NCBI GenBank assembly: GCA_002844335.1
Contig: CP019154.1
Coordinates: forward strand, 1,240,001 to 1,304,000
DNA: 64,000 nt
Direction: 5' to 3'
DNA from: Haloarcula taiwanensis
GTDB taxonomy: Archaea > Halobacteriota > Halobacteria > Halobacteriales > Haloarculaceae
Shown here: one piece after another, positions 14,005 through 18,103 of the stretch
How the letters are laid out: every line of letters starts with the position of its first letter
Position numbering within the stretch: position 1 is the first letter of the stretch
Notes under the pieces: model-generated
What the model was told of the DNA's origin: nothing
The model's input: the letters and a program-made list of their open reading frames with translations, nothing else
Databases searched by the model: none
Translations under genes and position numbers: made by a program

Positions 14005-14484
14005 TCATTCCTCGGACAGCTCGATATCTAGTTCGTCACGCGGAACGGCCAGCCTGAACGTCGGCACGGTCTTCTCAACGGTCTCCACGATACCCTTGTC
14101 CGCGAGGCTGCGAAGCGCAGAGCGAACCTCGTCGGTGTCGCGGTCCTCGCCGACCTCGCGGAGGGCGTGTAACACGGCGACGACACTCTGGCTCTCCTCG
14201 TCCGGTCCAGCGATTACGTCGACGATAGCCTGCTGGAGCGGGGTGACCGTCACTGTCTGAATCCGCTCGGAGTCTTCCCCGTCGATGAGCGTCGTCGCTT
14301 CCGGCGTCGCACAGATGAGGCTGTTGTCGTTGCGGTAGTAGTACTCCTTGAGTTCGGCTTCGAGGTACTGGTGGACCTCGCTTCCGCTGTCCATGTCCCA
14401 GCGCTCCTGCAACTCGCCGTTTTTCGTCGGCTGGAGCTCGACGATGTCGGCGAGTCGCTCGCGGGCCTCCTCCGAGAGGGTCAT
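14005..14484 (-). CDS. DUF5797-like winged-helix protein
   Basis: 159 residues from ATG 14484. The N-terminal 70 residues (SEEARERLADIVELQPTKN) look like a helix-turn-helix. The second half (TPLQQAIVDVIAG..., DTDEVRSALRSLADKGIVETVEKT) reads as a winged helix with typical recognition-helix spacing. It resembles the haloarchaeal DUF5797 family and would be a DNA-binding regulator. It sits 52 bp downstream of an ABC permease on the same strand and may share its transcript, suggesting it could regulate that transporter. Confidence 0.72.
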   Translation of the reverse strand: MTLSEEARERLADIVELQPTKNGELQERWDMDSGSEVHQYLEAELKEYYYRNDNSLICATPEATTLIDGEDSERIQTVTVTPLQQAIVDVIAGPDEESQSVVAVLHALREVGEDRDTDEVRSALRSLADKGIVETVEKTVPTFRLAVPRDELDIELSEE

Positions 14485-14536
14485 GGCCCGTCGGTACGAC
14501 GACCACGTATTTCGGTGTTCTGAATCCGGGTAAGGC

Positions 14537-15772
14537 TCACTCGTGTCTGAGTGCGTCGATCGGGTCGACCCGTGCCGCCCGCCATGCCGGGTAGAGACCG
14601 GCGACGACGCCGACAAGGACGCCGACGCCAACAGCCAGCGCCATCCACAGCGGCGCGAGCGAGAACGTCACTTCAGCGTACCGAGTCGCGCCGTAGCCGA
14701 CGAGGAGTCCCAGCGGGACGCCGAGCAGCGAGCCGATCGTCCCGAGCAGTGCGGCCTCGACGAGGAACACCTGCATCACGTCTCGGTTGCGCGCCCCGAC
14801 GGCTTTCATGATGCCGATTTCACGGGTGCGCTCGGTGACGCTGACGAGCATCACGTTGGCGATGCCGATAGCGCCGACGACCAGCGCGATGACGGCGATA
14901 CCTGTCACGAAGCGCGTGATGCGCTCGATAACGTCGCTAATCTCCTCAACGAAGTCGTTGCCCGACCGCGCGACCAGTTCCGTGTCGTCGGCCGACAGCG
15001 ACCGCGCGTCCGCGTCGCCGGAGATGTAGCCCTGAATCGCCGACTGGGTCTCCGGAATCGCCCGCGGGTCGACGACGAGCGTCACCTGCGGGTACGCGCG
15101 CTGTCGCACGCCCGCCGCCGGGCTCTCGACGACGGAGTCGTAGAACGGGTCGATGGGGACGTACACCCGCGGCTGGCGGGCGAAGTCGCTAACCGGGACT
15201 TCCCCGCGAGTCCCGTTGACGACGCCGACGACAGTAACGTTCCGCTCGCTCCCGTCAGGCATCGTCATCGTGAGCCGCTCGCCGGCCGTGAGGTTCTCGG
15301 CGAACGACCCGGCCATGCGCTCGTTGACGACGACCGCCGACTCCTCGGCCCCGAAGGACCGGCCCTCGACGAGGACGCCGTCGCCGATGCTGGCCGGTCG
15401 CACTGCCGTGACCTGCTGTCTGGCCAACGTCCGGTTTCCGTGTCGTATCGACTGGGTCCGGACGATACCGCGCGGAAGCGCCGCCTGCACGCCCGGAATC
15501 CCCTCCAACTGCTGGACGTCGTACTCGGTAAACACCGGCTGGAGCGTCCGGTCGAAGTCGTCGTCGCCGGCGGGCGTCCCGAACACGTAGATGTTGCCCG
15601 CGTTCGAAGTCTCGATGTCGCCGACGATTTCGGCCTCGACGCTGGCCCCGAACGTGGCGAAGGTGATGACCGACGCGATGCCGATGATGACGCCGACGAC
15701 CGTCAGCGCCGACCGGAGTTTGTGGGCCCTGATAGACCGGAGCGTGATGCGGACGCTCTCGCCGGCGTCCAT
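14537..15772 (-). CDS. ABC transporter permease, MacB/FtsX (LolC/E) type
   Basis: 411-residue membrane subunit. It has the MacB-type N-terminal helix (about 22-42), a large external MacB_PCD domain (about 45-270) and three C-terminal FtsX helices with the motif VSVTERTREIGIMKAVGA. In this family the subunit couples ATP hydrolysis to mechanical work on lipoproteins or peptides outside the membrane. ATG 15772 shares one base with the ATPase stop (TGATG); GTG 15775 is an alternative giving a 4-bp overlap. Its ATPase precedes it and a LolA-like gene is divergent from both. Confidence 0.87.
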   Translation of the reverse strand: MDAGESVRITLRSIRAHKLRSALTVVGVIIGIASVITFATFGASVEAEIVGDIETSNAGNIYVFGTPAGDDDFDRTLQPVFTEYDVQQLEGIPGVQAALPRGIVRTQSIRHGNRTLARQQVTAVRPASIGDGVLVEGRSFGAEESAVVVNERMAGSFAENLTAGERLTMTMPDGSERNVTVVGVVNGTRGEVPVSDFARQPRVYVPIDPFYDSVVESPAAGVRQRAYPQVTLVVDPRAIPETQSAIQGYISGDADARSLSADDTELVARSGNDFVEEISDVIERITRFVTGIAVIALVVGAIGIANVMLVSVTERTREIGIMKAVGARNRDVMQVFLVEAALLGTIGSLLGVPLGLLVGYGATRYAEVTFSLAPLWMALAVGVGVLVGVVAGLYPAWRAARVDPIDALRHE

Positions 15773-16479
15773 CACTGTTTGCCCCCGGAGACGTCCTCGA
15801 CGGACTGGATGTGGCCGTCCTCGACGTGGACGATGCGCTCGGCCCGCTCGGCGACGTGGCGCTCGTGAGTCACGAGCAGGAACGTGTTGCCCGCCGCGTG
15901 CAGGTCGTCGAACAGGTCCAAGATTTGCGCGCCGGTGTCCGTGTCGACGTTGCCGGTGGGCTCGTCGGCGAGAATCAACGCCGGGTCGGTCGACAGCGCA
16001 CGGGCGATGGCGACCCGCTGGCGCTGGCCGCCGCTGAGTTCCGCGGGGACGTGGTCGGTGCGGTCGCCGAGTCCAACCTCAGAGAGGAGCGACCTCGCCC
16101 GCTCGCGGCGACGGGCGCGGTCCCAACCGTCGAAGACCAGTGGCAGAGCGACGTTTTCCACCGCGGAGAGTCGCGGCATGAGATTGAACGTCTGGAAGAC
16201 GAACCCGACCTCTGTCCCGCGGATGTCGGCCCGCTCGGCCTCGCTGGCCGCCGAAACGTCCTGTCCGTTGACCACGACCTGCCCCGACGACGGCGTGTCC
16301 AGCCCGCCGATGAGGTTCAACAGCGTGCTCTTGCCGGAACCGCTCGGACCCATCACCGCCGTGTACGACCCGGCCGCCAGGTCCAGGCTCACGTCGTCGA
16401 GCGCCGTCACCGTCCCGCCGAGGTCGTACTGCTTGCTGACGCCCTCGACGCGGACGGTCGTGTTCGCTGGCTCGCTCAC
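15772..16479 (-). CDS. ABC transporter ATPase, LolD/MacB family
   Basis: 235 residues. Walker A GPSGSGKST at residues 44-52, signature LSGGQRQRVAIARAL from about residue 148 and Walker B LILADEP at 168-174 are all intact, followed by the H-loop (VTHE). The family powers lipoprotein release or macrolide and peptide export through an FtsX-type permease, encoded immediately downstream with a 1-bp overlap. Length and insert-free sequence are standard. Divergent promoter sequence must lie in the 115-bp gap shared with the LolA-like gene. Confidence 0.9.
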   Translation of the reverse strand: MSEPANTTVRVEGVSKQYDLGGTVTALDDVSLDLAAGSYTAVMGPSGSGKSTLLNLIGGLDTPSSGQVVVNGQDVSAASEAERADIRGTEVGFVFQTFNLMPRLSAVENVALPLVFDGWDRARRRERARSLLSEVGLGDRTDHVPAELSGGQRQRVAIARALSTDPALILADEPTGNVDTDTGAQILDLFDDLHAAGNTFLLVTHERHVAERAERIVHVEDGHIQSVEDVSGGKQ

Positions 16480-16594
16480 GGCCCCGCGTACGGACTGGAC
16501 AGCAATGAGGGGTTCGACCGTTGTCAGCCCTGACGAAAGTTCCGGTGCTGTGATAGGAGCAACCCACTTACCACTCCAGTCCTAAGGCAGGCCA

Positions 16595-17614
16595 ATGACA
16601 GCCAATACCGGACGGAGACTGGCTATCGTCGCTGTGTTTGTCACTATCGGACTGCTGGCCGCTGGGGCGGTCGCTGGTGTGTCCGGCCTCAGCGAGATGG
16701 GGCAACCGTCCGGCGACGAGGTGCTGGACCAGACCGAGCAGCGCTACGACGTAGCCGAGACGATTACCGGAACCGCGACTGTGACTGTGATGAACGACTC
16801 GGCGTCGAAGACTGCAACGGTCGAATATGCCGCCGCTGAGCCGAACAAAACGTGGGCCGCCGTCACGAGCGAGACCCGGTCGTACGAGATGGGGACGAAC
16901 GGGACTGTCGTCTGGGCGGTCGGCGAGAACCGGTCGTATGCCCGCGAACTGACTGCGGAGTCCGTGGCGATGAACGACTCGACCGACCCGGTTCCCGAGG
17001 AGAACGTCACAGCGACGCTCCGCGGGACTTCAGAGGTCAACGGCGAATCGACGTACGTTCTCGACCTCGAACCGACCAACGAGAGCATCGACGCGCCGAA
17101 CACGACGCTGTGGGTCGATACCGAGGACTACCGCGTTCATAAGATGACCACTGACGACGGAACGAACCGGACGGAGCTCACCGTCGAGGAGACGAATTTC
17201 AACGTCAGCATCGACGACAGTCAGTTCGCCCCGCCGGCTGACCGGGTCGCCGTCACGACCGTCGAAACGTACGACACCTACGACGCGGCTCAGTCGGCGA
17301 CGGATATGGACCTGCCAGAGTACGAGAACGGGACTTTCGAGGAAGCGCGATATATCAGCCGGCCGGAGAGTACGGCCGTGGTCCAGCAGTACGACGCTGA
17401 CAGCGAGAACGTGACCGTCCTGAGCGCCACTGGCGCGTTGAGGTACTTGGAGGACGTGGAGAACGGGACGGCAGTGCAGGTGAACGGGCAGAACGCGACC
17501 GCAATCGAGCGCGACGACAGGGCTGTCGTCTACTGGACCGAAGACGCTGTCACGACTGGCGTGGTCGTCGAGGGGACGACCGACGAGGCCGTCGCCGCCG
17601 CTGAAGAACTGTAG
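16595..17614 (+). CDS. LolA-like outer-membrane-lipoprotein-sorting homologue
   Basis: 339 residues. An uncleaved or cleavable N-terminal hydrophobic segment (about 9-29, LAIVAVFVTIGLLAAGAVAGV) is followed by a secreted domain starting QPSGDEVLDQTEQRYD, which matches the start of LolA/LolB-fold proteins in haloarchaea. There are many N-x-S/T sequons, typical of exported haloarchaeal proteins. The second half (about 215-339) is an extra alpha/beta domain often seen fused in this family. It diverges from a LolCDE/MacB-type transporter 115 bp away. Role in lipoprotein handling is inferred from fold and neighbourhood. Confidence 0.75.
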   Translation: MTANTGRRLAIVAVFVTIGLLAAGAVAGVSGLSEMGQPSGDEVLDQTEQRYDVAETITGTATVTVMNDSASKTATVEYAAAEPNKTWAAVTSETRSYEMGTNGTVVWAVGENRSYARELTAESVAMNDSTDPVPEENVTATLRGTSEVNGESTYVLDLEPTNESIDAPNTTLWVDTEDYRVHKMTTDDGTNRTELTVEETNFNVSIDDSQFAPPADRVAVTTVETYDTYDAAQSATDMDLPEYENGTFEEARYISRPESTAVVQQYDADSENVTVLSATGALRYLEDVENGTAVQVNGQNATAIERDDRAVVYWTEDAVTTGVVVEGTTDEAVAAAEEL

Positions 17615-17638
17615 CGACGCCCGCTAACTGTCTGTATT

Positions 17639-18103
17639 CTATAGCTCTTCCAGCGTTCTCTTGACTGCTTCCCAGTGGCTCCCTTTCCAGAAGTGTTGCC
17701 CGCAGTCCGTACAGCGCCAGACCCGTTCGTCGTCCGCGGTCGGTGCGTACTCCGGCGTGGGTTCGACCGGGTCGACCTGCTCGACCGGCCCGTTACAGAC
17801 GCCACAGTGGGCCGGCTCGTCGGCGAGCGAGAGTCGGAAGCCGGCGTCGGCGAGTTCCCGCAACTGGTCCTCGACCGCCCGTTCGGTGAGGAGCACGCTC
17901 TCGGATGCGCGGGCGGCGAGGTCGCTGTCCCGAGTTATCACCAGCCGGTCCTCACGTGCCGCTACAGCGAGGAGATCGTCGTCGGCCTCGGCGGCCCGGT
18001 CCAGCGCGTAGGCCGTGTCGTAGCCACACATCCGGAGATAGGTGGCGAGCTTGCCGAGCATCGCATCGAGGGCGAGCCGGTCGCGCGGGGTCTCCTCAGA
18101 CAT
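17639..18103 (-). CDS. Mut7-C RNase domain protein with zinc ribbon
   Basis: 154 residues. The N-terminal part (LALDAMLGKLATYLRMCGYDT, then AREDRLVITRDSDLA) has the conserved Asp residues of the PIN-like Mut7-C nuclease. The C-terminal half carries a zinc ribbon, CGVCNG ... CTDCGQHFWKGSHW. It is the last gene of an operon with PolX; its ATG overlaps the polX stop region by 8 bp. It likely cleaves RNA or single-stranded DNA with metal ions; the tight coupling to a repair polymerase is suggestive. Confidence 0.87.
   Translation of the reverse strand: MSEETPRDRLALDAMLGKLATYLRMCGYDTAYALDRAAEADDDLLAVAAREDRLVITRDSDLAARASESVLLTERAVEDQLRELADAGFRLSLADEPAHCGVCNGPVEQVDPVEPTPEYAPTADDERVWRCTDCGQHFWKGSHWEAVKRTLEEL

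Follow-up and report, generated by a model that had tools for sequence, protein, structure and literature searches.

Results

Gene content and arrangement of the locus

The region studied comprises positions 14537-17614 of the window, by which is meant the whole 64,000-nucleotide stretch of Haloarcula taiwanensis DNA that was analysed; the source genome is 3.72 Mb in size. The genes and the intergenic region considered here are listed below.

14005-14484, minus strand: DUF5797 winged-helix protein, beyond the permease gene
14537..15775, minus strand: MacB-type ABC permease (FtsX, E 1e-23; MacB_PCD, E 1e-17)
15772..16479, minus strand: ABC ATPase of the LolD/MacB/FtsE class, with intact catalytic motifs
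16480..16594, no strand: divergent intergenic region of 115 bp, from the ATPase start to the start of the LolA-like gene
16595..17614, plus strand: exported LolA/RseB-fold protein with an N-terminal hydrophobic segment, a LolA-like domain and a DUF4367/RseB-C-like domain

The earlier note had described an exported LolA-like protein encoded back-to-back with a MacB/FtsX-type ABC transporter; the genes are indeed present, and both the fold and the permease type match. The ATPase and permease genes share a 4-bp overlap on the minus strand, so translational coupling is likely, and the likely start codon of the permease is the ATG at 15772. A Mut7-C gene sits downstream of the LolA-like gene. The divergent intergenic gap measures 82-144 bp in the majority of distant relatives. 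Genomes of the Halosimplex type (L054-L057) have 1.9-3.6 kb between the divergent LolA-like and ATPase genes, with the orientation unchanged. An 8-bp inverted repeat (GGACTGGA/TCCAGTCC) lies near both divergent starts within window 16480-16594 and is kept in most Haloarcula. It was considered as a shared operator and rejected, being unconserved in locus L041 and in remoter relatives.

The transporter

The permease carries both an FtsX and a MacB_PCD domain, as type VII permeases do, and is predicted to have four transmembrane helices, the first two of which (TM1 and TM2) are separated by a large extracellular domain. Encoded by a single gene, it probably forms a homodimer. Comparison with PDB sequences gave MacB at 5e-38 and LolC at 8e-10, and the profile of the permease family scored 166 bits against E. 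coli MacB, 41 against LolC and 26 against LolE. The structures nearest to the permease model (mean pLDDT 79) were MacB and the pneumococcal MacAB-like pump. By sequence and by predicted structure, the transporter is MacB-like and not LolC/LolE-like; its previous description as a LolCDE/MacB-type transporter is accordingly retained for the MacB part and dropped for the LolCDE part.

Residues 166-185 of LolC, which we take to be the Hook that recruits LolA, fall opposite a gap in MacB and in each of five haloarchaeal permeases, in an alignment at only about 20% identity. The permease scored 56.5 bits against TIGR02212 (cut-off 362). The best match of the ATPase was TIGR02211, the LolD equivalog model, at 230.5 bits, below the cut-off of 307.75; its Walker A motif, LSGGQ signature and H-loop are intact, and its Walker B motif reads ALILADEPT. 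Among the genes flanking the unit that had an annotation or a match, none was MacA-like. Across backbones no further gene travels with it, and the conserved neighbour of the transporter is the LolA-like protein.

The LolA-like protein

The exported protein consists of a hydrophobic segment (about residues 10-30), a LolA-like domain (about 38-214) and a DUF4367/RseB-C-like domain (about 218-339). Its sequence is acidic (62 D+E against 18 K+R), lacks cysteine and contains 14 N-glycosylation sequons, as expected for a putative secreted or surface protein of haloarchaea. As a single sequence it matched the Pfam LolA_like family weakly (PF17131, 27 bits against a 30-bit cut-off); among 22 orthologues, matches with E up to 0.01 were to LolA_like in 14, DUF2092 in 10, DUF4367 in 9 and MucB_RseB in 1. 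The curated LolA cut-offs were missed (PF03548, 13.5 against 23.6 bits; NF053572, 27.6 against 100), and a PDB sequence search returned nothing convincing, the best entry being 4mxt, a LolA-like protein, at 0.005.

An AlphaFold2 model was built from 22 sequences (mean pLDDT 77; pTM 0.56, with uncertain domain packing). The predicted order of elements is a helix (H40-53), six strands (56-118), a lid (119-137), five strands (138-202) and then a second small domain, so that the N-terminal helix and the 11-strand half-barrel with a lid region appear in the order seen in LolA. The lid, between beta-6 and beta-7, is short, modelled at low confidence and hypervariable. Foldseek placed full-length RseB and MucB first among PDB entries (E 1e-11 to 1e-10), followed by LolA of several bacteria (E 2e-9), LprG and others. 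The LolA-like fold proposed earlier is thus upheld, as one of the LolA/RseB class. Since RseB and MucB rank above LolA, "RseB/LolA-like" is the better name, and on the model the RseB/MucB architecture fits better than that of LolA. The names "outer membrane lipoprotein-sorting protein" and "DUF2092 protein", both in use within the family, are corrected by these results.

Within the LolA-like domain the two strand faces differ in hydrophobic fraction (0.65 against 0.33), a borderline result, as 97 of 2000 shuffles scored as high. The half-barrel of MucB is reported to act as a lipid sensor, with lipid A recognized inside the cavity (PMC7400510), and acyl chains are bound by LolA (PMC9457489), so a lipophilic ligand for the LolA-like protein may reasonably be inferred, and no more than that.

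Membrane anchoring

A lipobox was found in none of the 44 LolA-clade members, all of which have an N-terminal hydrophobic segment; a lipoprotein (LolB-like) form of the window protein is excluded on this count. Other haloarchaeal relatives carry a lipobox in about 20 of 27 cases (with one doubtful automated call and one missed lipobox recognized by eye), and visual inspection showed one in each of the 11 complete relatives from two further families of the phylum. No permease of the present family lay within about 6 kb of 12 relative loci in two other families of the phylum. The sequences are in line with a switch from a lipid anchor to a transporter partner, although the association of lipobox loss with transporter pairing is suggestive only. 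The genome of the window encodes two more LolA-like paralogues (L034, G000:C2:470193; L150, G000:C1:2831401), one of which has a lipobox; a permease of the unit's family lies beside neither.

Co-occurrence and co-inheritance

Both proteins were searched for in genomes at least 90% complete, 148 of the family and 295 of the order, in a search centred on the phylum Halobacteriota. Thresholds were chosen after the scores had been seen (LolA profile at least 210 bits, where the scores jump from 179 to 216; permease E < 1e-110). Both genes were present in 43 of the 295 genomes, the permease alone in 35, the LolA clade alone in none and neither in 217; as these genomes share kinship and are not independent, Fisher values from such counts are not probabilities. 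Of the Haloarcula genomes, 15 contain the pair and 17 contain neither gene.

Divergent linkage to the permease was observed at 41 of the 44 LolA-clade loci in the 43 genomes, against roughly 0.0008 expected per locus. The pairing is therefore far above chance, chance neighbourhood of the two genes is ruled out, and co-occurrence does extend beyond a few strains, contrary to the refuting outcome named in the earlier note. The LolA-like gene lies 0.8-1.1 kb from the permease gene in 38 of the 41 linked loci, which leaves room for an ATPase gene, and further divergent linked pairs occur below the thresholds. At the three unlinked loci (in G290, in G325 and at one locus of G357) the transporter is encoded elsewhere in the same genome.

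The tree of the LolA-like protein follows that of the permease (r = 0.91, whereas 1000 permutations reached at most 0.23), and the two have 29 of 45 splits in common. A plasmid-borne Haloarcula copy clusters with Halobellus in both, a placement across families. Association of the LolA-like protein with the MacB-type transporter is accordingly strong, and almost certainly real: the three-gene unit recurs and is inherited together across several haloarchaeal families. The pump family can do without the partner, as one group of permeases, from further families of haloarchaea, lacks a LolA neighbour. LolA linkage switches at least 9 times on the permease tree, consistent with repeated loss or unlinking, and the 35 genomes with a permease and no LolA-clade protein imply that the pump can work alone or with another partner.

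Chromosomal and plasmid context

The winged-helix DUF5797 gene had been counted as a fourth member of the system. Co-occurrence held for the LolA-like protein and the permease and failed for DUF5797, which was rejected as a member: it stays where the unit is absent (31 of 32 genomes of the genus have it, with or without the unit) and does not accompany the unit at other locations. Units in Halonotius, Halohasta, Halobellus, Halococcus, Halosimplex and Halorientalis have neither DUF5797 nor Mut7-C neighbours, so DUF5797, Mut7-C and PolX are regarded as backbone genes. A clean empty site was found in a close relative (G018), in which about 190 bp of gene-free sequence separates DUF5797 from Mut7-C and the DUF5797 protein is 99% identical to that of the window.

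Seven other Haloarcula genomes hold a different MacB-type ABC operon in this slot. An exported protein partner accompanies the alternative operon (at two loci, and in a similar operon elsewhere in the window's genome) and was CARDB-containing by Pfam in the two tested, so exchangeable cassettes of a pump and an exported partner exist. The Haloarcula slot (14484-17639; L123-L132) is variable: it may be empty or hold the LolA unit, a MacB-type ABC with a CARDB-type exported protein, or other genes. In Haloarcula halophila the unit is located on a 525-kb plasmid (NZ_CP119560.1). This plasmid has two copies of the unit (L045, L072), each lying in a near-identical stretch at least about 12 kb long.

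Discussion

Comparison with known systems

Like the Lol system (LolA with LolCDE or LolDF), the haloarchaeal unit combines a type VII ABC ATPase and permease with a LolA-fold partner outside the membrane. It differs in having a single MacB-type permease, in which the LolC Hook segment was not seen, and a partner with an additional domain at the C terminus that may also be anchored in the membrane; the genes are divergent, and haloarchaea have no outer membrane. Judged by sequence, the unit falls outside the bacterial Lol system. The MacB-type exporters (E. coli MacB, the S. pneumoniae MacAB-like pump and YknZ) resemble it in permease sequence and predicted fold, but here the partner has a LolA/RseB fold in place of a MacA-type adaptor and, unlike in E. 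coli MacB, the ATPase is encoded by a separate gene.

RseB and MucB share with the exported protein a two-domain organization, a LolA-like N-domain followed by a small C-domain, whereas sequence identity is only 11-14% and the haloarchaeal protein is encoded with an ABC transporter. Archaeal lipoproteins of the LolA+DUF4367 type belong by profile to the same family as the LolA-like protein; they differ in that most have a lipobox and none of those examined outside haloarchaea is near a permease of the unit's family. The mycobacterial proteins LprG and LppX are likewise LolA-fold lipid carriers of the cell envelope, and are lipoproteins, unlike the haloarchaeal clade. LprG is encoded with a transporter of the MFS and not the ABC type.

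Proposed function of the unit

The unit is tentatively proposed to be a MacB-type pump with a LolA-fold, carrier-type partner that binds a lipophilic ligand, a reading to which we give slightly less than even weight. The ATPase and the MacB-type permease would form a type VII ABC machine in which ATP drives the motion of extracellular domains. The LolA/RseB-fold protein would be its extracytoplasmic partner, either secreted or tethered to the outside of the single membrane through an uncleaved hydrophobic segment. Its half-barrel may bind a lipophilic moiety (an archaeal lipid, a lipidated protein or a lipophilic foreign compound), which the pump would load, unload or extrude from the outer leaflet. 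Such a handover would resemble that of lipoproteins from LolCDE to LolA, minus the outer-membrane destination. Gene content, fold class, co-inheritance, divergent arrangement, lack of a lipobox and the MacB-type permease are what was computed for the unit; from these we infer partner-permease contact, a lipid-like ligand and a direction of transfer.

The carrier-type proposal is favoured by co-occurrence and divergent linkage, the mirrored trees, the empty site, the retention of unlinked pairs, the match of the model to RseB/MucB and LolA, the absence of a lipobox, and the resemblance of the permease model to exporters of the MacB type. Against it stand the permease-only genomes, the borderline strand amphipathy and the uncertain domain packing, and no substrate gene was found linked to the unit. 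The role in surface-lipoprotein or lipid handling put forward in the earlier note is, given the predicted fold, plausible.

Two other readings are serious rivals to a carrier. The LolA/RseB-fold protein could be a sensor or regulator that responds to a bound lipid or membrane-stress signal by gating the ATPase or activity of the pump; this is unlikely, yet deserves consideration because RseB and MucB, its best full-length structural matches, sense lipids without carrying them, as MucB does with lipid A. The hypervariable stretch between beta-6 and beta-7 could then be a signal-specific lid, and orthologous pumps without the partner are what would be expected of an accessory. However, neither an RseA-like or MucA neighbour nor a sigma factor was seen beside the haloarchaeal unit, and no other membrane signalling gene is conserved there. 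Archaea are not known to have an RseA-type sigma/anti-sigma system.

Somewhat less probable is ordinary MacB-like efflux of antimicrobial peptides or drugs, with the LolA-fold partner serving outside the cell as the adaptor, the place taken by MacA in bacteria. The permease type, the occupation of the same slot in other Haloarcula by a MacB-type ABC with a CARDB-domain protein, and a patchy distribution with horizontal transfer, which suits an accessory defence trait, all point this way; the lack of a neighbouring MacA-like protein and a fold that points to lipophilic cargo argue against it. A true archaeal Lol relocation, in which lipidated surface proteins are pulled out by the pump and taken by the LolA-like protein to a second site, for example the S-layer or extracellular vesicles, is improbable even though haloarchaea have many lipoproteins with their own lipidation factors, AliA and AliB (PMC12186497), and the fold and gene pairing recall LolA with LolCDE/LolDF, because haloarchaea lack an outer membrane, the permease does not resemble LolC or LolE, the curated Lol cut-offs were missed and about half of the searched Haloarcula genomes lack the unit.

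A bolder form of the carrier-type proposal is an independently assembled archaeal module that moves outer-leaflet lipids or lipid-anchored proteins to the S-layer, vesicles or the medium. This form is itself rather unlikely; if true, a Lol-like handover would operate without an outer membrane.

Implications for archaeal cell surfaces

No description of a LolA-type/MacB-type module in archaea was found in the literature searched, a scope that left out most subscription papers and preprints. The pairing of a LolA-fold carrier with a type VII ABC transporter is usually explained by the need to cross the periplasm to the outer membrane. A co-inherited pair in monoderm archaea uncouples this pairing from the outer membrane, and the haloarchaeal pair provides a testable way into archaeal handling of lipophilic cargo at the cell surface.
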